Part shown: positions 27,429 through 38,517 of the stretch, one piece after another
Numbering within the stretch: the stretch's first letter is position 1
How the letters are laid out: each line of letters starts with the position of its first letter
Source of the DNA: Demequina rhizosphaerae
GTDB lineage: Bacteria; Actinomycetota; Actinomycetes; Actinomycetales; Demequinaceae
Length of the DNA: 64,000 bases
Assembly (NCBI RefSeq): GCF_000971255.1
Contig: NZ_BBMC01000003.1
Location: forward strand, 62,001 to 126,000
Direction: 5' to 3'
Translations under genes and position numbers: made by a program
The notes under the pieces: model-generated
The model's input: the letters and a program-made list of their open reading frames with translations, nothing else
Told to the model about the DNA's origin: nothing
Database searches by the model: none

Positions 27429-27460
27429 AGGCCCGCCGCCCCTGACGGGACGGCGGGCCT
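27429..27460. terminator. Terminator, originally shared with glnA
   Basis: A perfect 10-bp stem (27429-27438 with 27451-27460) encloses a 12-nt loop. Before the element inserted, this hairpin lay just beyond the glnA stop as well as the hydrolase stop, so it would have terminated both convergent genes. Confidence 0.75.
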
Positions 27461-27482: not shown

Positions 27483-27509
27483 CTTAGCAGTCGTAGTAGA
27501 GCTCGAACT
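27483..27509. repeat. attL: 27-bp core repeat
   Basis: Identical over 27 bp to 37083-37109; the match ends abruptly on both sides. It encodes a spare copy of the glnA C-terminus (the codons for FELYYDC and the stop) with nothing of the gene beyond it. Confidence 0.93.
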
Positions 27510-27816
27510 ACCCCCGTATGGACGGCTACTGGTGGCCAGTCATGGAATACACGTAAATAGCAGGGCCGATGATTCGCGGCGCTGGTGGCAACCGGTGGAC
27601 GATTCTGGGCGCCTTGCGGACTGTTTGCGGACTGGCCGCGCCCGCCGCCGGTCTTCGGCGCGGTGTGATAGTTGTCACGTCGAACTGGACCGAGCGCGTC
27701 GGTTCTGCCGCTTATGCCACGAGGACCGCATACTCGGTCACGCTGAGGGGCAAGTCCGAGTTGGATCCATCGCCGATCGAACAGGGTGCCCGTTACCTAC
27801 TGCGAGGGGATTGGAT
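27510..27816. other. Left-end non-coding region with integrase arm-site pair
   Basis: No convincing gene is seen here. The stretch holds two tandem copies of TTGCGGACT (27614 and 27625, 11 bp apart). An almost identical pair lies at 37016-37036 near the other end, as expected for arm-type integrase sites. A frame through 27532-27927 contains two CxxC pairs, but its upstream part lacks codon bias and is treated as a shadow of the small gene at 27817. Confidence 0.6.
27614..27634 (+). repeat. Tandem integrase arm-type sites (left)
   Basis: Two TTGCGGACT units lie 11 bp apart, one helical turn, in a 21-bp block that matches 37016-37036 at 19 of 21 positions in the same orientation. It begins 105 bp inside the left core repeat. 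Reading it as an integrase arm site is inference. Confidence 0.65.
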
Positions 27817-27927
27817 ATGGCCCGCAAGAGCTACGGAATGGCGAACTTCTTTCTAGATGCGGTGCTGACGCTGTTCACAGGTGGCCTCTGGCTGATCTGG
27901 GTCTTCGTCCGAGAGATGCGCCGCTAG
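27817..27927 (+). CDS. 36-residue membrane protein
   Basis: A small frame with GAGGGGA 6 nt before the ATG. The product begins MARKSYGMANFF, has one hydrophobic helix (LDAVLTLFTGGLWLIWVFV) and ends in REMRR. Positive charges at both ends and a single transmembrane segment suggest an inner-membrane peptide. It is followed by a hairpin at 27945-27974. Function unknown; small membrane proteins at satellite ends can act in superinfection exclusion, but nothing here proves that. Confidence 0.6.
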   Translation: MARKSYGMANFFLDAVLTLFTGGLWLIWVFVREMRR

Positions 27928-27944
27928 TCATCGGATCGCCACCA

Positions 27945-27974
27945 CGGCCCGTCTCTCAATCGAGGGGCGGGCCG
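27945..27974 (+). terminator. Hairpin after the 36-residue gene
   Basis: CGGCCCG and CGGGCCG (27945-27951, 27968-27974) form a stem extended by inner CTC/GAG pairing, 18 bp after the stop. Confidence 0.55.
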
Positions 27975-28051
27975 CTGCGCCAAAGGAGTGAAATCGTGGC
28001 GCCTTCGTGGCGCATGCGATAGGTTGCGGCCAACTTCGACCGGGGGCTGAC

Positions 28052-28759
28052 TTGGCTGAGCAAAATGACCTCACAGACGAGGAAATCATCGTTGGACTGG
28101 CGTCAGAGAGTCCCCTCATCTTGCACCTGGCACTTCCGCAGGGCTGGCGTGATCTGTCAGCACACATTGACTCTCAGGGCATGTCGCGAGCCCTGCTGGT
28201 GGATACCAGCAAGCCCTATTCGCTCAACGACCGGATGCCGGATGCGCAGCGGACCGACGCGGTGCTGCTCCAGGCGATGACGATCGGCGCGCACTCGCGC
28301 GAGTTGGGCACCGAGGTCCCGAGCGACGTGGACGAAATGAAGCGATTGTGGGGCGAGTACCACGAGTTCGCGGCTGGCCTTGATCGGCCCTACACTCCGA
28401 TGACTCTTCGATATCGGGCCGACGGGGTGGACGTCATCAAGCTATCTGTAGAGCACGGTGGCGACGAGTTCGGCGAGTCCCTAACAACCTTGACCTCGTA
28501 CCTCGCTCGAAAGTCGGAGCACTGGCTTCGGGTGACGCCCACGAGTGCTGAGGGCGAACATCGGTTCGACAGGTACCTCAGCAACTGCGACCCGAAATTC
28601 AGCTACTTGGGGCACTCGGCCGAATCTGCACGAGATCTGGTGCGCGATTCAATCCTCTATCGCACCCTCATCGCGAGCGTTACAGCGGAGCAGAGGCTTG
28701 CGGAGTTGGCGCGGGAACACGAAGAGCGAGTTGCGAGACGTGGGAGCCGTCACGAATGA
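28052..28759 (+). CDS. Unknown element cargo protein, 235 residues
   Basis: I do not recognise this family. The product is soluble and acidic, with no signal or membrane segment. The C-terminal 40 residues (SVTAEQRLAELAREHEERVARR) look like an amphipathic or coiled-coil helix. Codon use and base composition are less GC-biased than in host genes, as expected for transferred cargo. The start is unclear: TTG 28052 has GGGGG 5 nt upstream, and GTG 28007 is in frame with no good site. A strong AAAGGAG at 27982 instead leads to an 8-codon frame from GTG 27996. Anti-phage or helper-interference roles are only possibilities. Confidence 0.6.
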   Translation: MAEQNDLTDEEIIVGLASESPLILHLALPQGWRDLSAHIDSQGMSRALLVDTSKPYSLNDRMPDAQRTDAVLLQAMTIGAHSRELGTEVPSDVDEMKRLWGEYHEFAAGLDRPYTPMTLRYRADGVDVIKLSVEHGGDEFGESLTTLTSYLARKSEHWLRVTPTSAEGEHRFDRYLSNCDPKFSYLGHSAESARDLVRDSILYRTLIASVTAEQRLAELAREHEERVARRGSRHE

Positions 28760-28810
28760 CCTCGACGGCGAGGCCATTCCGAGGCACGGTCAGAGTCGCC
28801 TGGGGCACCG

Positions 28811-28963
28811 CTAGGCAGGCTCGGACGTCCGCGAACCTCGCGGCCCCCGCAGCATCTCGCCGTCGCGAACGATCCACCCCACGATGTCGCCCGACAAGGT
28901 CTCGATGATCGCCGTCGCGCCGGCTCGCTCGGCTGCATACAGCCGCAACTGCTCTCCTGCCAT
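28811..28963 (-). CDS. Candidate 50-residue protein
   Basis: A short minus-strand frame from ATG 28963 with GC-rich third positions throughout. The product begins MAGEQLRLYAAERAGATAI and contains ETLSGDIVGWIVRDGEML, a plausible small beta-rich domain. No ribosome-binding site is visible. The surrounding 435 bp between the 235-residue cargo gene and 29195 otherwise hold nothing I can support. Confidence 0.35.
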   Translation of the reverse strand: MAGEQLRLYAAERAGATAIIETLSGDIVGWIVRDGEMLRGPRGSRTSEPA

Positions 28964-29194
28964 GGCGACATCGTGGCGGGGCTGTCTGACAGCCCACAGC
29001 GACGACGAAACGCCCCGCCGGCTGGGGCAGCGGCGGCGCGTTCGTGGGGATACAGGGGTGGGCCGCTGTCACGCCGACGTGCATATCGGCATGCCGGAAG
29101 ATCGGCTCGACACGCCATCCCTGCCAGCCCCGATACCCCGCCTGCCGGCGATAACGTCACCTCTGTTGGGCAGCACCAATACTGAGGGGGATCG

Positions 29195-29506
29195 ATGTCG
29201 AGCACGGAGCAGAGCACAACCAAGAAGTACGGGGCTGACCGCCTGGCGGATGGCGCGGAGTCGGCCTTCTTCTGGAGCCCCATAGTCACGGGCGTAGGAA
29301 TCGGCCTCGCCTACTACCTCGCGTATTCCATGGGCGTGGGCGGCTTGATCATGGGCCTACTGGTGGCGCTCGGCGGCGTGATCGTTGGACTGTACGGCAC
29401 CGTGCGGATGATTTCGGGCGGTCGCATTCTGGCAAGGAACATCGAGCGGTCGAGCTTGGCGATCATCGAGCAGGCGGAAATCGAGAACCAACGCGACGGT
29501 CGCTAG
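29195..29506 (+). CDS. Two-helix membrane protein, element cargo
   Basis: A 103-residue protein with a polar N-terminus, two adjacent hydrophobic segments (IVTGVGIGLAYYLAYSM and LIMGLLVALGGVIVGLYGTV) and a charged cytoplasmic tail. The ATG at 29195 follows GAGGGGGAT. It is a single-gene unit closed by a hairpin at 29508-29533. Family not recognised. Confidence 0.65.
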   Translation: MSSTEQSTTKKYGADRLADGAESAFFWSPIVTGVGIGLAYYLAYSMGVGGLIMGLLVALGGVIVGLYGTVRMISGGRILARNIERSSLAIIEQAEIENQRDGR

Positions 29507-29507
29507 G

Positions 29508-29533
29508 CCCGCCCAACGCGATTGTCGGGCGGG
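29508..29533 (+). terminator. Hairpin after 103-residue membrane protein
   Basis: CCCGCCC (29508-29514) pairs with GGGCGGG (29527-29533) across a 12-nt loop directly after the stop. Confidence 0.6.
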
Positions 29534-29627
29534 GCTCTGTCGTGCGCCGACGACATCGTGGCCGCGACCAATGACACCGGGTGCCCGTCCCGCTAGGGTG
29601 GCGGCATCGACGTCTGAGGGGGCGAAC

Positions 29628-29993
29628 GTGAAGCGGATCGTGACGAGCCGGGGGCACTACTACGTGGAGCGTCCCGGCAGCGTCGGCGCGGTGCTCGGCT
29701 CCATCGCACTTGGGGCGCTGTGGTTCGTGGTCGTAGTGCCAGCCTTTGCCGTCGGCACCGACCGGACGCTCATCTTCACGATGGTCGCCACGTTCGTGCT
29801 CGGCCTGCCCGCCTACCTGCTGGCATCGCGCAAGGGGGCTCGACAGCGGTCCCGCGTGGCCGCGATCATCGACGCTCGCGAGGTCCCCGGCGGCGTGCAC
29901 CTCGTCGTCATGGACACCGCGAACGCCCGCCACGAGCTCGTCGTCACCGACGGCGTGGTGAGCGACCTCGAGCGAGCTCTCACGCGCTCCTAG
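29628..29993 (+). CDS. Two-helix membrane protein with soluble C-terminal domain, element cargo
   Basis: A 121-residue protein: short basic N-terminus, two hydrophobic helices around residues 20-65 (SIALGALWFVVVVPAFAV, FTMVATFVLGLPAYLLA), a basic hinge, then a small beta-rich domain (VPGGVHLVVMDTANARHELVV). The GTG at 29628 has GAGGGGG 5 nt upstream; the longer frame from 29571 lacks one. I do not recognise the family. It is one of three short transcription units that each carry their own ribosome-binding site, which is typical of modular cargo. Confidence 0.65.
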   Translation: MKRIVTSRGHYYVERPGSVGAVLGSIALGALWFVVVVPAFAVGTDRTLIFTMVATFVLGLPAYLLASRKGARQRSRVAAIIDAREVPGGVHLVVMDTANARHELVVTDGVVSDLERALTRS

Positions 29994-30095
29994 TCGCCAG
30001 CTCCCGTCCCAGCGTGGTGCGGTGCCCTCGGCACACACCGGCGCTATGGTGCCCATCAGCGCAGATGGCACTGCGAGCAGTCTCGAGGGAGAGCA

Positions 30096-30311
30096 ATGGG
30101 ATTCCTGGGAAGCCTCTTTGGCAAGTCGACGAGCGACGACGGTGACGAGTACGGGACGTGCGCGTCGTGCGACTGGCCACTCACCGCTGCCGACGAGGAC
30201 GGCGAGTTCTGCAACGACTGCGTCAGCGAAGGCGGCTCCGCCAAATACTGCTGCGGAGCCATCTACGAATACGGCGAAGATACGTGTGCGAGTTGCGGGG
30301 ATCCTCTGTAG
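30096..30311 (+). CDS. 71-residue double zinc-ribbon protein
   Basis: The product has eight or nine cysteines in pairs: CASC and CNDC, then CC and CASC near the C-terminus, consistent with two treble-clef or ribbon zinc sites. The N-terminus MGFLGSLFGKS may associate with membranes. The ATG at 30096 follows GAGGGAGA. It is convergent with the late operon of the element. Function unknown; similar tiny zinc ribbons are common near actinophage genes. Confidence 0.65.
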   Translation: MGFLGSLFGKSTSDDGDEYGTCASCDWPLTAADEDGEFCNDCVSEGGSAKYCCGAIYEYGEDTCASCGDPL

Positions 30312-30347
30312 GGAAGAGCCCAGAACTTGCCAGGCGCATTGGTCGGG

Positions 30348-30605
30348 CTAGAGCTCCGAATCCATGCGCGCCGCACTTCCGCGTGCGGACTGCTCGAGGC
30401 GGACCTCGCGCGGGAGCAGCACCATCCAGCCGTTGATGTTGCCGAGGGCCTCGATGGACCATGCGCGGCCTGCCGAGTGCCAGGCGTTGCGGGCGTTCAC
30501 GTCGTCGGGGTCGAGGGTCAGCGACCAGGCTGCATGAGTGGGGCCGGCGGCGATCTCGGGCGGCAGTCCGGTGGGGTCGAGGGCGGTGCGACGGGTGCGG
30601 GCCAT
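30348..30605 (-). CDS. Unknown 85-residue protein, last gene of element operon
   Basis: Starts with ATGA overlap on the stop of the small-terminase gene, so it is translationally coupled to it. The product begins MARTRRTALDPTGLPPEIAAGP and contains DDVNARNAWHSAGRAW and WMVLLPREVRL. The length and position, directly after the small terminase, are where actinophages place HNH or head-associated small proteins, but no HNH motif is seen. Family not recognised. Confidence 0.65.
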   Translation of the reverse strand: MARTRRTALDPTGLPPEIAAGPTHAAWSLTLDPDDVNARNAWHSAGRAWSIEALGNINGWMVLLPREVRLEQSARGSAARMDSEL

Positions 30606-30973
30606 CAGCGGGCCACCTGCTGGCGCTTGCGAGCCTCACGTGCCCGCGCCGAGGCTGCGGTGAGGGTCGGCACGGATGAGCCGTCCTCGTCGTCTGGCAG
30701 CGCGAGGACGCCGACGAGGCGGGCGAGGACGAGCTGCTGGCCGCGGGCCTCGGTGAGCAGTCCGTTCGTGACGGGCTGGCCCTGGGAGCCGGTGACCATC
30801 GCGCCGGTGTTGCGGATCGCGTCGTCGAGCATGTCGAGACGGTCGAGCACCCGGCACGCTTCCTCGAGCACCAGCGTCTCGGAGTCGGTGAGCTCGTAGG
30901 AGCCGAGCACGGAGCGCCAGTAGGCGCGGCCACGTCGCGCGAGTCCGCGCGGGGCCTTCGGGATCTCAGTCAT
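30605..30973 (-). CDS. Phage small terminase subunit (P27-like)
   Basis: A 122-residue protein that fits the P27-type small terminase pattern: LARRGRAYWRSVLGSYELTD, then a Leu-rich helix LEEACRVLDRLDMLDDAI, the conserved VTGSQGQPVTN and LTEARGQQLVLARLVGVLALPDDEDG. Small terminases recognise cos or pac DNA and recruit a large terminase. No large terminase is in the element, so it would have to borrow one. The ATG at 30973 has AAAGG upstream. The 286 bp before it carry repeated sequence that may be its target. Confidence 0.82.
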   Translation of the reverse strand: MTEIPKAPRGLARRGRAYWRSVLGSYELTDSETLVLEEACRVLDRLDMLDDAIRNTGAMVTGSQGQPVTNGLLTEARGQQLVLARLVGVLALPDDEDGSSVPTLTAASARAREARKRQQVAR

Positions 30974-31027
30974 GAGGGCCTTTCGGGGTGGGGAAAACGA
31001 GCATCGGTGCCCGGCGCGCCAAAGGTT

Positions 31028-31161
31028 GCCCTCCCCGGCGGTCACGGTGCGAGGCCGGAGAGGGTTGGTGCCCGGGGTCTGACTGCCTCGCAGGCAGTTG
31101 CTCGCGAGGCCGGCGCAACTCTGGGAACCCGTACAGATCCGAATCGCCCTCCCCAGCGGTC
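31028..31161. repeat. Imperfect direct repeats between capsid and terminase genes
   Basis: GCCCTCCCCGGCGGTC (31028-31043) recurs with one change at 31146-31161, a 118-bp period. The following 35-40 bp are also alike (CGAGG, GGG runs, ending CTGAC). The region 30974-31259 has no gene. Such repeats next to a small terminase are candidates for its cos/pac binding site (inference). Confidence 0.5.
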
Positions 31162-31259
31162 GAAGTCTCGAGGGGCCGATGGGGCCTTGGGGCGGGGGCC
31201 TGACGCGAGGTGCGGCGACGCGCGCTGTTCACGGCAACGCGCGCCGCCGCCTGCGAGGA

Positions 31260-32099
31260 CTACGAGGCGTCGTAGATCTTGACGATGGCGGCCTCGTGGA
31301 CGAAGCCGTATCCCACGCGCATGACCGCACGGACGGCGGTGGAGTATGAGGCGAAGTAGACGGAGCGGTCGACGTCGAGCTCAGCGCCGCCACGCTGGAC
31401 GACGTAGGACGCGGCCTTGGGGATGCCCCAGGTGGTGCCCGTGGTGACCGCCGACGAGACGAGCAGGGGGACGCCGAGGATGCGACGGTCCAGGGCGTCG
31501 GTCGCGGACGTGCCCAGCATCGGCATGTTGGAGCCGGTCGCCTGCTTGAGCTTGGCGATCACGAGCGCGGTGGCAGGGTCGGTGACGAACGCACCGATGG
31601 TCGCGCCCACCTCCTCGGCCTTGCTGATGGCCTCGGCGAACACGTCGAACGATGCGTAGGCACCAGCGGTGTCGACCTCGGAGACGCCGGTGAGGGACTC
31701 GAGGCCGGAGGGCCCGTTGGTCACGGTGTTGCCGAAGAACGCGGCGTCGACCTTGGATACGATGTCGCGCGCGATGCCGGCACCCACGATGCTCGCGGCG
31801 GTGGGGCTCGAGTCGCTGGCGAGCTCGTTGCTGATCTTGGTCAGACCCGCGACCTTGGCCGGGGTGACGGTGAGCTCGTCGAGCGTCTGGTCGCTGAGGG
31901 TGATGTCGGCACCCTCGGCGAACCAGCCTGCGGACGGGTCGGCGGTGACGATGGGCAGGTTGACGCGCGTGGAGTCGGTCGTGAGGAGCGTCGACACCTG
32001 GTAGGCGACGGACTCGCGCTGGACGGGCTGGACGATGAGCGGCCCGTAGTCGTCGGGAGTGATGCCGGAGACGTCCGACGTGGTGGTGAACATGGCCAT
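31260..32099 (-). CDS. HK97-fold major capsid protein
   Basis: A 279-residue phage capsid protein. Readable family landmarks are the N-terminal LIVQPVQRESVAYQVSTLL, the E-loop-like segment with PIVTADPSAGWFAEGADI, the long spine-helix region (IVGAGIARDIVSKVDAAFF), the A-domain GAFVTDPATALVIAKLK, and LLVSSAVTTGTTWGI. It lacks the roughly 100-residue N-terminal delta/scaffold domain and there is no protease gene, so assembly probably relies on the separate scaffold-like protein. The ATG at 32099 follows AAGGAG. A 155-bp leader with an inverted repeat precedes it. Confidence 0.9.
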   Translation of the reverse strand: MAMFTTTSDVSGITPDDYGPLIVQPVQRESVAYQVSTLLTTDSTRVNLPIVTADPSAGWFAEGADITLSDQTLDELTVTPAKVAGLTKISNELASDSSPTAASIVGAGIARDIVSKVDAAFFGNTVTNGPSGLESLTGVSEVDTAGAYASFDVFAEAISKAEEVGATIGAFVTDPATALVIAKLKQATGSNMPMLGTSATDALDRRILGVPLLVSSAVTTGTTWGIPKAASYVVQRGGAELDVDRSVYFASYSTAVRAVMRVGYGFVHEAAIVKIYDAS

Positions 32100-32194
32100 G
32101 AGTGGCTCCTTGGGGAAGGCGCGCAGTCCCGCGCGCTCTGTCTGTGAGAGTCACGCGAGGCGCTGCCTCGAGCGTGCTGGCCCGCGGGGCCGAC

Positions 32195-32247
32195 GGTATC
32201 AGGACCGGATCGCCTGGATCAACGGCCCTGATACCACCATGATACCA
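32195..32247. promoter_or_regulatory. Inverted and direct repeats upstream of the capsid gene
   Basis: GGTATCAGG (32195-32203) is inverted as CCTGATACC (32227-32235), and TGATACCA is repeated at 32229 and 32240. These sit between the scaffold stop and the capsid start, so the capsid gene may have its own regulated promoter. The binding factor is unknown. Confidence 0.5.
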
Positions 32248-32254
32248 GCAGGGT

Positions 32255-32695
32255 CTATTTCCCCCTAAGCGCGTCCGACCACGTGGGCGCGGGAGCCTGC
32301 GGCTCGGACGCCTTCACGCCGCTGTCGGCGCTGCCGGCGAACCTCCGTCCCCGGTAGTGCGGCTTGGCCTTCACGAGCTCGAGCACAGACGCCTGCACGG
32401 CTTCGGCGTCGACGGTGCCGTCCTCGGCGAGCAGGGCGTCGAGGTCGGCGTGCTGCCACAGGTCCGCGCCGTCCGCGAGCATGTCGGCTCCCGTCGCGAT
32501 CCGCTCGACCTCAGCCCGGCGCATCGCAGTGAGGTGCTCGCGAAGCGTGTCGCGCTCGCCCTCGGTCTCCCGGAGCTGGCGCCTGTACTTCGCGGCGTCG
32601 CGTCCGGCCTTGGACTTATCGTCGACCGCTGCCTCGGCGGTGTCGACGGCGACCTCGGTGGCCGCCTCGGCGGTGGTCTCGGTGGTGTCAGTCAT
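32255..32695 (-). CDS. Scaffold-like coiled-coil protein upstream of capsid
   Basis: A 146-residue, strongly charged protein: Thr/Ala/Glu-rich N-terminus, central helix KYRRQLRETEGERDTLREHLTAM with heptad character, then a compact region and a polar C-terminus ending WSDALRGK. This composition and its place directly before the capsid gene match phage scaffolding proteins, though primary-sequence evidence is weak. The ATG at 32695 overlaps the previous gene by 8 bp, and the stop is followed by the capsid leader. Confidence 0.65.
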   Translation of the reverse strand: MTDTTETTAEAATEVAVDTAEAAVDDKSKAGRDAAKYRRQLRETEGERDTLREHLTAMRRAEVERIATGADMLADGADLWQHADLDALLAEDGTVDAEAVQASVLELVKAKPHYRGRRFAGSADSGVKASEPQAPAPTWSDALRGK

Positions 32696-32975
32696 CGGTG
32701 GTGTCCTCTCGCTTGAGTTCCTGCATGGCGGCGCCCTGGCGCACGAGCGCGAGGGCCTTGTCGGTGTCGCCCTCGGCGACGGTGAAGAGTGCGCCGGCGG
32801 CGTGCCAGATAAGCGCGTGCGCGATGTCGACGAGGGCCTGGCCGGGCTGGTCGGCCTCGGTAGCGTAGGTCGCCAGGAGGCCCTCGAGCTGGTCGGTGCC
32901 AGGGTCGGTGATCGCGGTCGTGATGAGCGCGAAGGCCGCGCGATGGGCGGCCTGAGCGCGGCCAAAGTCGCTCAC
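32688..32975 (-). CDS. Unknown 95-residue helical protein
   Basis: A small Ala-rich, mostly helical product (begins MSDFGRAQAAHRAAFALI; later LEGLLATYATEADQPGQALVDIAHALIWHAAGALF). No family recognised. The GTG at 32975 overlaps the upstream stop by GTGA, and its own stop overlaps the scaffold start, so it is part of the coupled operon. Similar small helical proteins precede scaffold genes in some actinophages, but I cannot assign a role. Confidence 0.65.
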   Translation of the reverse strand: MSDFGRAQAAHRAAFALITTAITDPGTDQLEGLLATYATEADQPGQALVDIAHALIWHAAGALFTVAEGDTDKALALVRQGAAMQELKREDTTDD

Positions 32976-33193
32976 AGGATGCCCTCGGTCTTGAGCGTGC
33001 GGAAGTCTGGGCTCGCCATGACCGCCTGGGCATGGACGCACGGCACCTCAGGCTCGCCGCAATCGTCGCAGCGCCATCGCTCATGCGGCACGAGCACGCG
33101 ATGCATCCGCACGCGAGTCTCGGACGGGCCGACGAAGGCGAGCAGTCCGTGCTGTTTGCCTCCGACGCCGTGAATGCGAACCGGTGTTGTCAT
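32972..33193 (-). CDS. 73-residue protein with CxxC zinc-binding motif
   Basis: A small protein containing WRCDDCGEPEVPCVHA, which gives three Cys and one or more His for a zinc site, and an N-terminus MTTPVRIHGVGGKQHGLLA. The ATG at 33193 follows AAAGGAA and overlaps the WhiB-like stop (ATGA). No family recognised. Position in the operon suggests a regulatory or DNA-binding accessory role (inference). Confidence 0.65.
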   Translation of the reverse strand: MTTPVRIHGVGGKQHGLLAFVGPSETRVRMHRVLVPHERWRCDDCGEPEVPCVHAQAVMASPDFRTLKTEGIL

Positions 33194-33507
33194 GGTCGTT
33201 CCTTTCGTTTGCGCGCCAGGGTTCGGCGCTGGTTGGCCGACAGGCCTCCGTACGGGCCGGCCTCGTTTGGAAACTCGATCCCATGCCGCCTGCACAACAG
33301 CGCTACTGGGCACCGGGCGCACTCGGGAGCTGCCTCGAGCTGGTCGGATTCCCGGTCGCTCGCCCACTTCTCGGATGGGGTGTCGGAGCCGCCACGACAC
33401 GGGAGCGGACGCTGCTCATGGGCCCGGTCTGCCGCGGTGGCGAGCCGCGCCCACGACCGTGCCAAGTCCGGCGGCATGGCGACGGTGGGCCACGGGATGT
33501 CCGTCAC
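33190..33507 (-). CDS. WhiB-like Fe-S transcription regulator
   Basis: A 105-residue protein with the WhiB cysteine layout: one Cys at PLPCRGG, then CARCPVALLC, i.e. C-x(n)-C-x2-C-x5-C, followed by PYGGLSANQRR, equivalent to the GVWGG turn, and a basic C-terminal tail KRKERP. Such proteins bind a [4Fe-4S] cluster and the sigma factor; actinophages such as TM4 encode versions. Here it is coupled (GTGA) to the ATPase gene and precedes the structural genes, so it may switch on the capsid genes or interfere with host sporulation/division WhiB proteins (inference). Confidence 0.82.
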   Translation of the reverse strand: MTDIPWPTVAMPPDLARSWARLATAADRAHEQRPLPCRGGSDTPSEKWASDRESDQLEAAPECARCPVALLCRRHGIEFPNEAGPYGGLSANQRRTLARKRKERP

Positions 33508-34556
33508 GTCGGGCCGTCCAACAATGCTGTTGAAAGTGTTGAGAGTGTTGAATCGGGTTCGCTTTCAACACTTCCCACACTTTCAACAGGGGTGTAGAGA
33601 CCTCGTGATGGGCGCCTGATCCGACCCGCATCCTCCAGCCTCCCGAGGTAGGTCCCGGCGGTCTTGCCATCGAGCCCGAGCGCCTCCGCTACTTCGCCTG
33701 CTCGCACGCCCTGGGGGTGCTGGCGGACGTAGGCAACCACCTCGGCAGAACGGTCTCCGAGTCCGTGCTCGGAGCGCCGTTCGGTGGCGAGCCGGGCGGC
33801 GTCCGCGAGGCTGCCGCCGTCGACGGTCCATCGGCCCGCGTCGCTCACGACGGCATACTCGGCCTCCGTGACATCGCGGCCCGTGACGCGCAGCACGCCC
33901 GCGTCCTCGTTGCGCGCGCGCTCGAGGTTGACAGTGAAGTCGGCGGCGCCGTTCAGTCCGTTCGACCCGCTAGTGGAGTCCATCCAGTCGAGGGATCCGA
34001 GCTTGCGCGTGTGGTGAATCACGAGCAAGCAAGTGCCCGGCTGGTCATCCGCAAGGCGCTTGAGCCGGGAACCGATGCGGTAGTCGCGCTGATAGGCGCC
34101 CTCACCAGGCATCGCCGGAGGCATGACCTTGCCGAGCGTGTCGAGCACGACGAGCGGCGCCTTGTCGCCGTAGACCTCGAGCCACGCCTCGATAATCGGA
34201 ATGGCGTCGCCGTGGGTCGCAACGGTCGTGTAGTGCAGGTTGCTGGGAATCGCCACGCCCTCGCCGAGCAGGTGGCGCGCGCGGCGCTGCATGCGTCGGT
34301 CGCCATCCTCGAGGGCGAGGAACAGGACCGGGCGGGGCCAGCCGGTCGCGACCCTGCCGAGCGCCGGCTTGCCCGATGCGATGGCGAGCAGCAGCCCGTA
34401 GACGAGCCACGACTTGCCGGCCTTGGGCGGGCCGGTAAGCAGCCCGAAGCCTTCAGGGAGGATCTCAGGCACCGCCCAGCGCAGCGGCGGGAACGTCTGA
34501 GCATCGAGCCAGTCGCCCGTGCGAATGCAGGCGAGGTAGTCGGTGGTAGTGGTCAA
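33504..34556 (-). CDS. RecA-fold replication ATPase (RepA/DnaB-like)
   Basis: A 350-residue AAA_25-type ATPase. Walker A is GPPKAGKSW, Walker B is LVVLDTLGK, the sensor region is LLVIHHTRK. The C-terminal 90 residues form a winged-helix DNA-binding region (VVAYVRQHPQGVRAGEVAEALGLDGKTAGTYLGRLED). This matches plasmid and phage RepA-type initiator-helicases. The TTG at 34556 overlaps the previous stop (TTGA). The last 25 codons lie over a large inverted repeat at 33528-33588. Likely role is replication of the excised element. Confidence 0.82.
   Translation of the reverse strand: MTTTTDYLACIRTGDWLDAQTFPPLRWAVPEILPEGFGLLTGPPKAGKSWLVYGLLLAIASGKPALGRVATGWPRPVLFLALEDGDRRMQRRARHLLGEGVAIPSNLHYTTVATHGDAIPIIEAWLEVYGDKAPLVVLDTLGKVMPPAMPGEGAYQRDYRIGSRLKRLADDQPGTCLLVIHHTRKLGSLDWMDSTSGSNGLNGAADFTVNLERARNEDAGVLRVTGRDVTEAEYAVVSDAGRWTVDGGSLADAARLATERRSEHGLGDRSAEVVAYVRQHPQGVRAGEVAEALGLDGKTAGTYLGRLEDAGRIRRPSRGLYTPVESVGSVESEPDSTLSTLSTALLDGPT
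33528..33588. repeat. 25-bp inverted repeat with iteron-like units in the 3' end of the ATPase gene
   Basis: Arms 33528-33552 and 33564-33588 pair at 22 of 25 positions around an 11-nt loop. Each arm contains the short unit GTGTTGA twice. It is AT-richer than its surroundings. It could be the replication origin of the element, or an attenuator between the replication and structural genes. Confidence 0.7.
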
Positions 34557-34864
34557 GCGGCGGCCCTCCGCGACGGGCGTTCGACGCCGAACCGTGTCGC
34601 AAGCTCCCAAGGGAGCCACTTCACCGGGACTGCGAACGGCGGGTAACCTGACTGGCGAGCCGCGGCGGGATCGTCGGCGTGTGCGAGGGCTGTTGCGTAG
34701 TCCTCGAGCGCGTCGGCGGTCATGCCGTAGTCGGACGGCGGGGCAGGAGCCGCGGCCGGATGGAGTGTGGCGATGGTGCCCTCCAGTTCAGTCATCGCGC
34801 GACGGCGCTGCAGTTGCGTGCGCCAACGCTGGTGCGGGGTCGGTTCGAGGTTCGGGTGGGACAT
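34553..34864 (-). CDS. Unknown 103-residue protein between excisionase and ATPase
   Basis: Begins MSHPNLEPTPHQRWRTQLQRRRAMTELE and ends with FAVPVKWLPWELATRFGVERPSRRAAA. Central part is Ala/Pro-rich. No family recognised. The ATG at 34864 has AAGGA 9 nt upstream, and the stop overlaps the ATPase TTG start. Position suggests a replication accessory factor (inference). Confidence 0.6.
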   Translation of the reverse strand: MSHPNLEPTPHQRWRTQLQRRRAMTELEGTIATLHPAAAPAPPSDYGMTADALEDYATALAHADDPAAARQSGYPPFAVPVKWLPWELATRFGVERPSRRAAA

Positions 34865-34922
34865 GCGCGTGCTTCCTTCGATGCATGGCGCTCCTCCAGG
34901 ACGCAGGTGAACGTGTGGGCGA

Positions 34923-35099
34923 TCACTGGGCCGGCGTCGATTGCGCCTCGAGCCACGCGAGGACTTCGACCTCGTTCCATAGGCGGCGGCGCCCGACCTT
35001 GACGGACTTCGGCCCAACGCCGCGGTAGACCCAGTAGGAAACTGTGTTGGGGGAGACGCGGAGCATCTCTGACACTTCATTGAGGGTGAGCAGCTTCAT
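34923..35099 (-). CDS. xis: Excisionase / MerR-type helix-turn-helix protein
   Basis: A 58-residue protein with a single winged-helix of the excisionase/AlpA type: LLTLNEVSEMLRVSPNTVSYWVYRG, then a wing VKVGRRRLWNEVEVLAWL. It has an excellent ribosome-binding site, AAAGGAG with 6 nt spacing to ATG 35099. It is the first gene of the long minus-strand operon and divergent from the XRE regulator. Expected role is directing the integrase towards excision, and possibly autoregulation. Confidence 0.85.
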   Translation of the reverse strand: MKLLTLNEVSEMLRVSPNTVSYWVYRGVGPKSVKVGRRRLWNEVEVLAWLEAQSTPAQ

Positions 35100-35246
35100 G
35101 GCTGACTCCTTTCGGTTGTTGATCTGTTGTTAGTCACGAGCCGTTCCTGTCGGGGCCCGATCCCAGTCCGGTGGGCGGCTCCCTCTCGACGTGTTCTCAC
35201 CCCGCTTGGACCTTCACGCGGTGGCGGTATCGCTCGTCTCTCGCTG

Positions 35247-35293
35247 TTGAGTTGTCTCAAGGCTGTTCCATTGAGGCGTACTTGCTCGCCTCA
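35247..35293. promoter_or_regulatory. Two operator-like inverted repeats in the divergent control region
   Basis: TTGAGTTGTCTCAA (35247-35260) and TGAGGCG...CGCCTCA (35272-35278 with 35287-35293, 8-bp spacer) lie between the divergent xis and XRE genes. They share a TTGAG/CTCA theme. They are the probable binding sites of the element's repressor. Confidence 0.55.
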
Positions 35294-35316
35294 TAGGAAT
35301 ATCGTCGCGATCATGC

Positions 35317-35346
35317 TTGACCAACGCAAGCCAAAGTGGCTACAGT
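35317..35346 (+). promoter_or_regulatory. Sigma70-type promoter of the XRE regulator gene
   Basis: TTGACC (35317-35322) and TACAGT (35341-35346) are separated by 18 bp and end 26 bp before the ATG. This is the best consensus promoter in the window. Confidence 0.65.
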
Positions 35347-35372
35347 AACTTCCGTATTGGAATGGAGGCGAG

Positions 35373-35921
35373 ATGCCGAAGCTGAACCAGGCACGCAGCA
35401 TTCAGGCCGAGCGAACCCTCGCATTGCGCGTGGCGTATGAGCGCGAGAAGCGCGGATGGACTTACGAGTCACTTGCGAAGCGCATGACCGACAAGGGGTG
35501 TGCGATCAACGCGTCCGCGATCTACAAGATCGAGAAGGCGGAACCCCCGCGGCGCATCGTCGTCGACGAGCTGGTTGGCTTCGCATCCGCCTTCGCGGTG
35601 CCCGTCCAGGAGATGCTAATGCCGCCCATGCTGGCTGGCGCGCGTGACCTCTACAGGTTGATTTCCGACTACGCCGAAGCCGTAGATGAGCTGGCCAGCG
35701 CGCGCGCGTTGGCGGCGGACCGCGCGCAACTTGCGCGCGACTATGCACGAGAGCACACCAATGAGGAGTCCCTCGCGGCGGCAATCGACGCCTGGGTCGA
35801 GACCGAAGGCGCGCTCGTGGTGATCGACGATTGGGAAGTTGAGCGGGCGCGGTGGCGAGAGTTCCTGACGGACCCGGCCGCCGCGTCGCCCTACGACCTG
35901 ATTGAGTCTGCCGATGAGTAG
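35373..35921 (+). CDS. XRE-family helix-turn-helix regulator
   Basis: A 182-residue protein with an N-terminal Cro/CI-type HTH (residues 15-75; RGWTYESLAKRM...INASAIYKIEKAEPPRRI) and a C-terminal helical region (LASARALAADRAQLARDYAREH). It lacks a LexA-like peptidase motif, so induction is unlikely to be by RecA-driven self-cleavage; an antirepressor or helper-phage protein could relieve it (inference). The ATG at 35373 follows GGAGG. Its stop overlaps the integrase start region, so the two are co-transcribed. Confidence 0.85.
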   Translation: MPKLNQARSIQAERTLALRVAYEREKRGWTYESLAKRMTDKGCAINASAIYKIEKAEPPRRIVVDELVGFASAFAVPVQEMLMPPMLAGARDLYRLISDYAEAVDELASARALAADRAQLARDYAREHTNEESLAAAIDAWVETEGALVVIDDWEVERARWREFLTDPAAASPYDLIESADE

Positions 35922-37053
35922 CAACCCCAAGCCCACGCGCAAGTTGCCTGCCGGCATCACCCTGCTGGCGAACGGCAAGTACCGCGCCCGCTACCGCGAC
36001 GCGTCCGGCAAGGAACACGCCCGGCACTTTGATGTCTTGCGCAGCACCAGGACGAAGGCCGGCGCCGCGACGTGGCTCGAGCAGGTCAAGTCCGACATGC
36101 TCACTGGCAACTACGTCGACCCCAAGACAGCGCGCGCCACGGTTTCGGACTGGTGCGATACGTGGCTCGAGGGCTACCGGACCAACCGCAAGTCGACGGT
36201 GCGTCAGGCCGAGGTTCACATCGCGCACATCAAGCGCGCGTTTGGCTCGAAGCGCCTCGCGGACGTGAAGCCCTCCGACGTGCGGCGGTGGACCGCGCAG
36301 CTCGCGACCGACGACAAGGCCGCGGAGCGGAAGGCCTTGGCGCCGTCGACGGTGTACGCGATCCACGCGCGGCTATCGCAGATCATGGCCGACGCGGTGC
36401 ATGACGGTGTGATCGCCCGCAATCCGTGCTCGAGGCGCACGTCGCCGCCGATGGGCAAGCAGCGGCCCTACGTGGCGACCACGGAGCAGGTATGGGCGCT
36501 GCATGACGCGATGCCCGCGCACCTGCGGCCCGCGGTGCTACTCGGCGCGTTCGCGGGCCTGCGCATCGCAGAGGCGTGCGGCCTGCGGGTGTCGGACGTC
36601 GACTTCATGCGCGGCGTCGTGGCGCCGGCGGTGCAGTATCCCGCGCAGCCGCTCAAGTCCGACACGTCGCGCACGCCGGTCCCGATCCCGAACGAGCTCG
36701 CGCTCGAGCTGTCGAAGGGAGTGGGGGAGCGGACGTGGATGCTCGAGGACGCGCTAGGGGTGCAGGCGGGGCCGTGGGCCGTCGAGCGGGCCGTGCGCGC
36801 GGCGCGCAAGCCTGCGGGGCTCCCGGAGGCGTTCCGCTATCACGATCTTCGGCACTACTTCGCGTCGCTGCTCATCGCGTCCGGGTGCGACGTGAAGGTG
36901 GTGCAGGCGCGGCTCCGGCACGCGAGCGCGACCACGACGCTCAACACCTACGCGCACCTGTGGCCAGATGCAGAAGAGTCCACACGGGCCGCGGTAGCAG
37001 TAGTGCTTGCGGCCCGTGCGGACTCTTTGCGGACTGAGGCGGTGTCAGGATGA
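35914..37053 (+). CDS. int: Tyrosine site-specific integrase
   Basis: A 379-residue phage-type tyrosine recombinase. An N-terminal arm-binding-like domain (GKYRARYRDASGKEHARHF) is followed by a SAM-like core-binding domain (VSDWCDTWLEGYRTN...) and the catalytic domain with AGLRIAEACGL (Arg I), HDLRHYFASLL (His-x-x-Arg), LRHASATTTLNTYAH (His and the nucleophile Tyr). The ATG at 35914 overlaps the regulator stop. It ends 30 bp before the right core repeat, and its 3' end overlaps the right arm-type sites. Confidence 0.94.
   Translation: MSSNPKPTRKLPAGITLLANGKYRARYRDASGKEHARHFDVLRSTRTKAGAATWLEQVKSDMLTGNYVDPKTARATVSDWCDTWLEGYRTNRKSTVRQAEVHIAHIKRAFGSKRLADVKPSDVRRWTAQLATDDKAAERKALAPSTVYAIHARLSQIMADAVHDGVIARNPCSRRTSPPMGKQRPYVATTEQVWALHDAMPAHLRPAVLLGAFAGLRIAEACGLRVSDVDFMRGVVAPAVQYPAQPLKSDTSRTPVPIPNELALELSKGVGERTWMLEDALGVQAGPWAVERAVRAARKPAGLPEAFRYHDLRHYFASLLIASGCDVKVVQARLRHASATTTLNTYAHLWPDAEESTRAAVAVVLAARADSLRTEAVSG
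37016..37036 (+). repeat. Tandem integrase arm-type sites (right)
   Basis: GTGCGGACT and TTGCGGACT lie 11 bp apart, matching the left pair (27614-27634) at 19 of 21 positions in the same orientation. They overlap the last codons of int, 47 bp inside the core repeat. Confidence 0.65.
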
Positions 37054-37082
37054 CATCACCCCAGGTAAATCAGGCTCTAGAC

Positions 37083-37109
37083 CTTAGCAGTCGTAGTAGA
37101 GCTCGAACT
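37083..37109. repeat. attR: 27-bp core repeat within the glnA 3' end
   Basis: Contains the glnA stop codon and the codons for the last eight residues. It is identical to 27483-27509. Because integration rebuilds this sequence, glnA stays intact. Confidence 0.93.
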
Positions 37110-38517
37110 CGTGCGGGTGCGGACGGAAGCGCAGCGGGTCGATCTCGCTGGTGCGCTTGTAGTCGATCCACTCCTCGATGAGGTCGGGCGTGAAGACGCC
37201 GCCCTCGGTGAGGAAGTCGTGGTCCGCCTCGAGGGTGTCGAGCACCTTCGGGAGCGAGTCCGGCACCTGCGGGATGAGGGCGTGCTCCTCCGGGGGCAGC
37301 TCGTACAGGTCCTTGTCGACCGGGGCCGGCGGCTCGATGCGGTTCTTGATGCCGTCGATGCCGGCCATCAGGAGCGCCGCGAACGCGAGGTACGGGTTCG
37401 ACGACGGGTCGGGCGCGCGGAACTCGATGCGCTTGGCCTTCGGGTTCGAGCCGGTGATCGGGATGCGGACCGCGGCGGAACGGTTGCGGGCCGAGTACAC
37501 CAGGTTGACCGGGGCCTCGTAGCCCGGCACGAGGCGGTGGTACGAGTTGACGGTCGGGTTGGTGAACGCGAGCAGCGACGGCGCGTGCTTGAGGATGCCG
37601 CCGATGTACCAGCGGGCCATGTCCGAGAGGCCGCCGTAGCCGGACTCGTCGTAGAACAGGGGCTCGCCGTCCTTCCAGATGGACTGGTGGACGTGCATGC
37701 CCGAGCCGTTGTCGCCGAAGAGCGGCTTCGGCATGAACGTGACGGTCTTGCCGTGCTTCCAAGCGACGTTCTTGACGACGTACTTGAACTTCATGATGTC
37801 GTCGCCCGCGTGCAGCAGGGTGTTGAAGCGGTAGTTGATCTCCTGCTGACCGGCGGTGCCCACCTCGTGGTGCGCGCGCTCGATCGAGAGGCCGACCTGC
37901 TCGAGGACGGTGCACATCTCGTCGCGGATGTCCGCGAACTGGTCACCGGGGGAGACGGGGAAGTAGCCGCCCTTGTAGCGCGTCTTGTAGCCGCGGTTCG
38001 GGGTGCCGTCCTGCTCGAACTCCTTGCCGGTGTTCCACCAGGCCTCGGAGGACTCGATGTGGTAGTAGCCCTCGTTCTGCGCGGTGTCGAAGCGCACCGA
38101 GTCGAAGATGAAGAACTCGGCCTCGGGCGCGAAGAACGCGGTGTCGCCGATGCCGGTCGACTTCAGGTACTCCACGGCCTTCGCCGCGATGTTGCGGGGG
38201 TCGCGCGAGTAGGGCTCGTTCGTGAACGGGTCCACGATCGAGAAGTTGATGACGAGGGTCTTCGCCTTGCGGAACGGGTCGACGAACGCGGTGGCGACAT
38301 CCGGCAGCAGCTTCATGTCGGACTCGTTGATCGCCTGGAAGCCGCGGATCGACGAACCGTCGAACATCGCGCCCTCGGTGAACACGTCCTCGGTGAACTG
38401 CGACGCGGGAATGTTGAAGTGCTGCATCTGGCCGGGCAGGTCGCAGAAGCGGATGTCGACGAACTCGACGCCCTCGTTCTTCACATACTCGATCGCCTCG
38501 TTGGCGTCTTTGAACAT
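37084..38517 (-). CDS. glnA: Glutamine synthetase type I (GSI-beta)
   Basis: ATP-dependent synthesis of glutamine from glutamate and ammonia; dodecameric cytoplasmic enzyme. The 477-residue protein has [11 protein letters not shown] and the Glu ligands, [30 protein letters not shown] and the [11 protein letters not shown] segment whose Tyr is the adenylylation site. ATG at 38517 follows AAGGAG. A promoter-like TAGGGT box lies at 38564-38569 on its strand. The last codons form the attachment site of the satellite element; the coding sequence is complete, but its original terminator is now 9.6 kb away. Confidence 0.97.

Follow-up and report, generated by a model that had tools for sequence, protein, structure and literature searches.

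A putative phage satellite with a minimal set of capsid genes in the 3' end of glnA of Demequina rhizosphaerae

The window analysed here is a 64,000-nucleotide stretch of the Demequina rhizosphaerae genome (contig NZ_BBMC01000003.1, positions 62,001 to 126,000), and at 27483-37109 it harbours an integrated element of 9.6 kb in the 3' end of glnA. With a probability of roughly 0.7, this element is a phage satellite resembling the phage-inducible chromosomal islands (PICIs) and carrying a minimal shell kit of its own, which makes a small capsid itself and uses the portal, large terminase subunit (TerL) and tail of a helper phage. Judged from its genes it is a real and probably active satellite; it would form its own shell, take over a foreign portal and depend on a helper. 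The satellite type has already been glimpsed in mycobacteria and is found here in a form reduced to small terminase subunit (TerS), scaffold and major capsid protein (MCP). Distinctive is the occurrence of these three genes without TerL, portal and connector genes, on a chassis that is common to capsid-less satellites. Two observations are new: across 40 loci the MCP is paired with TerS or with TerL/portal and never with both, and the same chassis occurs without capsid genes in five genus-mates, of which one shows a clear and another a weak mimic of the scaffold tail. The features that carry the argument are the following.

27483-27509, att repeat, left copy (glnA-distal), a perfect 27-bp repeat
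30605-30973, minus strand, TerS (phrog_1496, 1e-20); the open reading frame (ORF) reaches 31045, the start is most likely at 30973
31046-31259, gap between MCP and TerS genes, at a guess from its position a packaging (pac/cos) region
31260-32099, minus strand, HK97-fold MCP of 279 amino acids (PF05065 Phage_capsid, 1e-29)
32255-32695, minus strand, capsid scaffolding protein of 146 amino acids (phrog_4708, 1e-4, and position)
35902-37053, plus strand, tyrosine integrase (PF00589, 1e-20; TTG start at 35902, ATG possible at 35914)
37083-37109, att repeat, right copy, containing the glnA stop region; the glnA reading frame stays whole

The first-pass annotation of this DNA had described perfect 27-bp direct repeats (27483-27509 and 37083-37109) spaced 9,600 bp apart, one of them being the stop region of glnA. 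This was confirmed, and relatives were found to have empty sites. glnA is the minus-strand ORF 37084-38517, the end of which is the right repeat. The repeat has 2 copies only in the 3.03-Mb host genome when up to 3 mismatches are allowed; there is no third att copy, and four Pfam families for portal, TerL and tape measure had no match in this genome. By chance such a repeat pair is expected ~3e-8 times in 12 kb. In the genus-mate G015 a terminator-like hairpin lies directly 3' of glnA, and its counterpart in the window, at ~27430-27460, is separated from glnA by the insert and lies beyond the left repeat. The flanks match G015 by 85 % on the left, where G015 has one extra gene of ~0.7 kb before the hairpin, and by 96 % on the right. 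Five genus-mates (G004, G014, G015, G028 and G008) have a single-copy, empty site with, by eye, the hairpin directly after glnA. Because the hairpin follows glnA in these relatives and lies beyond the left repeat in the window, the insertion in glnA is real.

The att core is present in 41 of the 44 genus genomes, and the glnA site is apparently filled in four further ones, in which the distance between two core copies (up to 3 mismatches) is 9.0 kb (G005), 10.1 kb (G006), 20.6 kb (G010) or 24.6 kb (G019). Integrase identity to that of the window is 93 % in G006, 70 % in G005 and 69 % in G010, while the G019 integrases are not close relatives. For the G006 integrase, dN (nonsynonymous divergence) is 0.05 and dS (synonymous divergence) 0.40, a ratio of ~0.12; dN is also below dS for repA, MCP and TerS pairs, a rough estimate as dS is large. 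The long insertions of G010 and G019 (L036-L039) harbour several long ORFs, of 780-1136 and 418-996 amino acids respectively, which are possible defence cargo. No paper naming glnA as a satellite integration site turned up, judging by search results alone.

The assignments of integrase, excisionase, AAA ATPase, WhiB, scaffold, MCP and TerS in the first-pass annotation hold by their Pfam and PHROGs scores. Structure prediction, which had been proposed for 31260-32099, yielded an HK97-fold capsid protein: the AlphaFold2 model from a 29-row alignment has a mean predicted local distance difference test score (pLDDT) of 82.6 and a predicted template-modelling (TM) score of 0.81 (an earlier job with 11 rows, at pLDDT 34, was discarded). 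Its best PDB matches are phage capsids, with those of HK97, D3 and phiXacJX1 at TM scores of 0.6-0.8, and the 29-row profile recovers HK97-type capsids from the PDB by sequence. The MCP has no delta domain, which, at 279 amino acids, fits the use of a separate scaffold protein. Homologues of the scaffold are labelled scaffolding protein in 4 of 10 listed records of 11-kb phage isolates from Mycolicibacterium aichiense, and homologues of TerS occur in full mycobacteriophages, e.g. Mendokysei and Bernal13 (42 % identity over about two thirds). Portal, protease, TerL, tail and lysis genes had not been seen in the first-pass annotation, and indeed none of these families is among the matches of the element, nor are adaptor, stopper, tape measure or serine integrase. 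These searches covered 14 of the 17 ORFs with Pfam and 10 of these also with PHROGs, the remaining three being 71-103 amino acids long; the ORF picker relies on codon-position GC, and genes may be missed. As no connector genes are carried, the shell would have to fit a foreign portal.

Relatives of the MCP come from four sources: genome contigs (9 loci), whole genomes, two phage records and IMG/VR (22 loci). Besides the window, 40 loci have an MCP ORF of >200 amino acids, and the DNA around each, within 9.5 kb, was searched with profiles seeded from the family of the window. A TerS of another type would escape these profiles; in the TerS position, L003 and L033 have a helix-turn-helix (HTH) protein without PHROG match. 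This tally does not include L009 and L051, whose MCP is broken or short, and L055, a copy of L006; L005, L047 and L055 are outside the MCP tree, and several contigs are incomplete. A scaffold profile match lies near the MCP gene in 39 of the 40 loci, 18 of which also have a portal gene. TerS occurs without TerL or portal in 13 loci (L010, L011, L012, L013, L044, L045, L048, L053, L071, L072, L074, L082 and L083), L012 and L013 being close relatives of each other. Another 20 have TerL and/or a portal but no TerS, including two with a two-piece TerL only (L003, L033) and two with a portal only (L047, L084). Seven have neither (L004, L005, L007, L008, L046, L050 and L070) and none has both, an exclusion with P = 1.3e-5 if kinship is ignored. 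An adaptor gene accompanies TerS in 10 of the 13 loci; L044, L045 and L071 are without one, like the window.

In a tree of 39 MCP rows the window falls within a 13-row set (support 99/98) with L003, L004, L007, L008, L033, L044, L045, L046, L049, L050, L070 and L071, the inner order being mostly unresolved. The packaging labels, of which there are five with 'none' counted as a label, require 10 changes on this tree, which indicates that modules were swapped more than once. The MCP occurs in 2 of the 47 family genomes and in 15 of 394 genomes of a class sample (the genome of the window counted in both). Class-wide, with at most 6 candidates scored per genome, there are 18 MCP places: the window, nine extended ones and eight unextended ones (G241, G209, G225, G378, G251 twice, G328:C107 and G375). 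The latter are 26-30 % identical (G375 46 % over 90 residues), and such distant relatives may sit in larger prophages. The first-pass annotation had allowed for all homologues lying inside full-length prophages; this does not agree with the 22 IMG/VR loci, all on contigs of 4.2-16.0 kb and none phage-sized, although these contigs may be incomplete. Plasmids gave four weak MCP matches of at most 29 % identity. The nearest phage MCPs are those of the twelve 11-kb M. aichiense isolates (38-39 % identical); in the other rows listed (the best 40 and a spread of 60 out of 256 records), identity does not exceed ~30 % and the records are at least 31 kb long.

The two-piece TerL is encoded at L003:7840-9276 (Brevibacterium antiquum) and L033:7945-9407 (genus-mate G008). 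Its ATPase part matches phrog_7579 (2e-55 in L003, 2e-48 in L033) and its nuclease-like part phrog_27743 (6e-27 in L003; phmmer between L003 and L033, 9e-76). In B. antiquum the two ORFs are adjacent; in G008 they overlap and are read in different frames. From these sequences, it looks like a natural split of TerL in two elements in which no portal was recognised.

Independent elements bounded by att-like repeats have a similar make-up. Integrase, scaffold, MCP and TerS lie between repeats of 26 bp in L071 (9,053 bp apart), 47 bp in L045 (98 % alike, 9,519 bp) and 28 bp in L044 (96 %, 10,108 bp). L008 has integrase, scaffold and MCP between 49-bp repeats (94 %, 8,407 bp), TerS not being recognised, and L003 has 71-bp repeats (92 %, 8,996 bp). 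L071, an IMG/VR contig, has integrase, replication gene, WhiB, scaffold, MCP and TerS in the same order as the window; the elements of the five genus-mates with TerS and the glnA element of G006 gave no MCP match. The integrase gene is co-directional with the operon in L071 and L044 and divergent from it in the window and L045.

TerS was found in 6 of the 47 family genomes, i.e. the window and G004, G005, G022, G027 and G039. The five genus-mates have integrase and TerS with a variably complete set of excisionase, replication gene, WhiB, zinc finger and the 85-amino-acid partner of TerS; neither MCP nor scaffold was matched in their elements, and the TerL and portal profiles found nothing in the stretches read. 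In G005 a protein of 94 amino acids encoded before TerS (L034:7435-7719) has tandem stretches resembling the C-terminal tail of the scaffold and matches phrog_2592 (3e-11); the corresponding match in G022 is weaker (0.003), and before TerS in G004, G027 and G039 there was no profile match. By its sequence, the 94-amino-acid protein of this capsid-less glnA satellite is a candidate bivalent capsid remodeller; in staphylococcal islands, competition with the helper scaffold in this way is the role of CpmB and Rcm (PMC12409344). Among phages it has one weak match, in Actinomyces phage xhp1. Scaffold-tail motifs were also seen by eye in L064 and L069, where they are unproven; a profile scan of the small pre-TerS proteins of L064, L068 and L069 gave nothing. 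Since the same chassis occurs elsewhere without the scaffold-MCP pair and, in one clear and one weak case, with a scaffold-tail mimic instead, it seems that the pair and capsid redirection can stand in for each other, and one chassis may thus carry exchangeable ways to exploit a helper. A broader proposal, which we hold tentatively and at somewhat less than even odds, is that of a satellite lineage with a fixed scaffold-MCP core and a stolen portal, in which TerS alone and TerL with portal replace each other as the packaging kit and, within the genus, the chassis alternates between its own shell and remodelling of the helper shell by a scaffold-tail mimic.

Two further elements of the genus deserve mention. 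The capsid-less TerS satellite of G027 (L069:4584-13491, 8.9 kb) is flanked by 50-bp tRNA-like repeats. The 10.1-kb glnA element of G006 encodes a tape-measure homologue of 938 amino acids (L035:6962-9778, phrog_13339, 7e-145), and no capsid gene was recognised in it; with the tape-measure homologues of the M. aichiense isolates WillG and Alyssa1, it raises the question whether satellites remodel tail length.

In the proposed course of events, the tyrosine integrase would place the element in the 3' end of glnA and leave the gene intact, site and gene being visible in the sequence. A helper phage may relieve repression, after which the element would excise and replicate. Scaffold and MCP would form a small (~T=3) procapsid around the helper portal, and TerS would deliver the satellite DNA to the helper TerL. 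Connectors and tail of the helper would finish the particle, to be freed by helper lysis. The size of the element agrees with the genome predicted for a T=3 capsid (mean 11.8 kb, range 8.1-17.1 kb; PMC7762592).

Several points weigh against this scheme. The element is known as integrated DNA, and particle, induction, circle and helper are predicted. The identity of the scaffold depends on a modest profile score and on position, and connector genes are lacking, unlike in the M. aichiense isolates. No cos/pac site was recognised by comparison with the M. aichiense genome ends, the MCP-TerS gap having no 9-letter word in common with the ends of WillG and Alyssa1. The nearest MCP relative (G008, 55 % identical) accompanies a two-piece TerL and not the TerS family of the window, and L049, with TerL and portal, lies in the MCP clade of the window. 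Poor fits are also L070, with an MCP 54 % identical and no recognised scaffold, and L007, with a weak tape-measure match (1e-10). A TerS search in the 47 family genomes returned, besides the window, only five loci read as satellites, and thus no helper with a related TerS in the genus. A helper resident in the host was considered and rejected, within the reach of four Pfam families: the genome has no match to PF04860 and PF05133 (portals), PF03354 (TerL) or PF10145 (tape measure). Tailed prophages do exist in the genus, since PF04860 is matched in 9 of its 44 genomes.

Among other explanations, the MCP might co-assemble with the helper MCP and shrink the helper shell. This is how Ccm of SaPIbov5 acts, a capsid-protein homologue that is the sole SaPIbov5 protein in the small shells and enters them as pentamers (PMC8569155), and the window is likewise without a portal gene. 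We consider it unlikely here. The SaPIbov5 helper phi12 has no separate scaffold (PMC8569155), whereas scaffold lies beside MCP in nearly all loci, 18 of them with a portal, a pairing that points to self-sufficient shell building. Furthermore, MCPs of full-length phages are at most ~30 % identical among the records listed, a poor basis for mixed shells. It is very unlikely that the element was once a larger prophage and decayed by loss of its portal, TerL, tail and lysis genes. Its MCP, scaffold and TerS are homologous to phage genes and it is known only as DNA, but its ORFs and att pair are intact, independent att-bounded elements have similar size and gene order, relatives lie on short contigs, and TerS and portal exclude each other across the 40 loci. 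The first-pass view of a satellite rather than a decayed prophage is further strengthened by the single att pair and the lack of matches to the four portal, TerL and tape-measure families in the host.

That the capsid pair has been co-opted, for instance for a compartment like an encapsulin or a gene transfer agent, seems highly improbable. The HK97 fold is shared with encapsulins (PDB rank 36) and a gene transfer agent (rank 18), but phage capsids outscore the encapsulin, integrase and TerS are part of the same element, and the MCP occurs in only two of the 47 family genomes. An encapsulin identity of the MCP was rejected on the same PDB comparison. It is scarcely credible that the element is a tiny phage able to propagate without a helper. 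The M. aichiense relatives were deposited as phages, and WillG and Alyssa1 are titled complete genomes; against this, portal, TerL, tail and lysis families are not among the matches of the window element, and portal and TerL profiles find no match in WillG and Alyssa1 either.

PICIs are integrated elements of ~8-15 kb with an integrase, a divergent repressor/excisionase switch and a replication gene but no lytic module. The window element has this architecture, with integrase, an XRE-like gene (weak score) divergent from the excisionase gene, an AAA replication protein and a length of 9.6 kb. PICIs are also characterised by a TerS that redirects packaging and by mobilisation through a helper phage; the element has a TerS homologue that would act in this way. 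Its remaining features are as follows.

27532-30311, plus strand, accessory arm of five ORFs (27532-27927, 28007-28759, 29195-29506, 29571-29993, 30096-30311)
30348-30605, minus strand, 85-amino-acid protein overlapping TerS; homologues next to TerS in L064, L066 and L068
32688-32975, minus strand, 95-amino-acid protein directly before the scaffold gene; no family match
32972-33193, minus strand, small zinc-finger-like protein (by eye); homologues in L034, L064, L066 and L068
33190-33507, minus strand, WhiB-like protein (PF02467, 8e-9)
33504-34619, minus strand, replication protein, AAA_25 ATPase (3e-27) with C-terminal winged-helix matches
33527-33589, candidate origin, an inverted iteron-like array in the 3'-terminal part of the replication gene
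34553-34864, minus strand, small protein (ORF); homologue in the G010 glnA element (L036; phmmer, 6e-8)
34923-35099, minus strand, excisionase-like HTH protein of 58 amino acids (PF12728, HTH_17, 7e-14; phrog_66, 2e-9)
35100-35372, putative control region between the divergent XRE-like and excisionase genes, by gene layout; promoter-like site at 35317-35346
35373-35921, plus strand, XRE-like repressor, divergent from the excisionase gene (HTH_31, 0.003; phrog_11503, 2e-6)

Layout thus comprises the rightward XRE-like and integrase genes, the divergent control region, a leftward row (excisionase, small ORF, replication protein, WhiB, zinc finger, 95-amino-acid protein, scaffold, MCP, TerS, 85-amino-acid protein) and a rightward accessory arm. 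The XRE regulator of the first-pass annotation is retained as a weak assignment, backed by the PHROG match while the HTH_31 score stays under the Pfam cut-off. TerS start, accessory arm and candidate origin are additions to that annotation. WhiB profile matches occur in six other loci (L034, L044, L050, L064, L068 and L071). The 95-amino-acid protein has no Pfam or PHROGs family and nothing credible at E 1. Four of the five accessory ORFs were scanned and are without Pfam match at 0.01; ORF 29571-29993 is shared with the glnA element of G005 (4e-25). The ORFs of the arm are candidate cargo or helper-interference genes. Rfam at gathering scores gave no match within the element, and megablast of the element against phages returned a single match, in which 211 bases of the glnA portion align with an unannotated record.

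Homologues of the replication protein occur in elements of G027, G010, G008 and Brevibacterium. The iteron-like array has inverted 26-nt arms that are 88 % complementary and a DNA fold z of -6.15; the G008 element has an array of like layout but other letters (L033 6964-7029) at the 3' end of a related replication gene, and no such array was found in six other regions tested. Both arrays are candidate origins, each of which would be recognised in an element-specific way. Fourteen elements were scanned crudely for clusters of repeated 8-mers. The best cluster is located within or next to a recognised replication gene in six (window, L033, L071, L044, L035 and L064), next to an ORF merely presumed replicative in three (L045, L066 and L068), and elsewhere or nowhere in five (L003, L034, L036, L069 and L008); shuffled controls mostly gave two copies and several gave three. 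The clusters near replication genes are suggestive of origins only.

If the proposed reading is true, a shell gene pair inserted into an ordinary satellite still captures a foreign portal, and two genes suffice to test how tailed phages recruit the portal when they assemble heads. A shell of its own around the 9.6-kb unit would also be a candidate T=3 capsid of a tailed phage, a small form whose lack has been called puzzling (PMC7762592). The exclusion between TerS and TerL/portal would offer a simple sorting rule for actinobacterial satellites, and the 11-kb GenBank isolates may be reclassed as satellites instead of tiny phages.

These twelve M. aichiense isolates (WillG, Alyssa1 and ten others; OR387110-OR387121) have a scaffold-MCP pair of the same family, TerS and an integrase. 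Portal and TerL are neither annotated nor matched by profiles in WillG and Alyssa1 (L012, L013), and no lysis gene is annotated; judging by these gene sets, the twelve are probably satellites co-isolated with an unseen helper. No paper on them was found. They differ from the window element by a serine integrase and by their own adaptor, stopper and tape measure (L012, L013), none of which was matched in the window, so that the element is not a member of their group. WhiB and the AAA_25 replication protein were not recognised in WillG and Alyssa1, unlike in the window, and the isolate MCPs fall outside its tree clade.

Capsid-forming PICIs encode MCP, protease, portal, connectors, TerS, TerL and HNH (summarised in PMC10690885), a fuller head module, as had been stated at the outset. 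The window element also has its own MCP, but only MCP, a separate scaffold and TerS were recognised; lacking portal, protease, connector and TerL matches, it is not classed with them. The Streptomyces satellites MulchRoom and MiniFlayer, compared by description, are likewise actinobacterial with scaffold and MCP genes, and small heads of ~43 nm were reported; they differ in having TerS, TerL, portal, adapter, terminal repeats and virulent helpers (PMC10690885). SaPIbov5 resembles the window element as a satellite with a capsid-protein homologue and differs in that its helper is the one without, and the window element the one with, a separate scaffold (PMC8569155). It has been suggested that small actinobacterial prophages may be satellites (PMC10023795), while satellite terms do not occur in the accessible text of PMC9862828.

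Related in concept are the Mycobacterium candidate PICIs, proposed satellites that are defined as phage-like regions with integration machinery and an MCP gene, a description that also covers the window element (PMC10654092). They have a tyrosine or serine integrase and MCP, some with helicase, terminase and scaffold, and phiRv1 and phiRv2 correspond to them (PMC10654092); the latter two are likened to the window element by description, not by sequence. The three mapped candidates with a tyrosine integrase use tRNA genes, the window element uses glnA, and no split between TerS and TerL/portal is described in the accessible text (PMC10654092). The earlier suggestion of a distinct actinobacterial satellite type is therefore narrowed by these published candidates (PMC10654092), while the set of TerS, scaffold and MCP without TerL, portal and connectors stands as the distinctive feature of the D. 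rhizosphaerae element.

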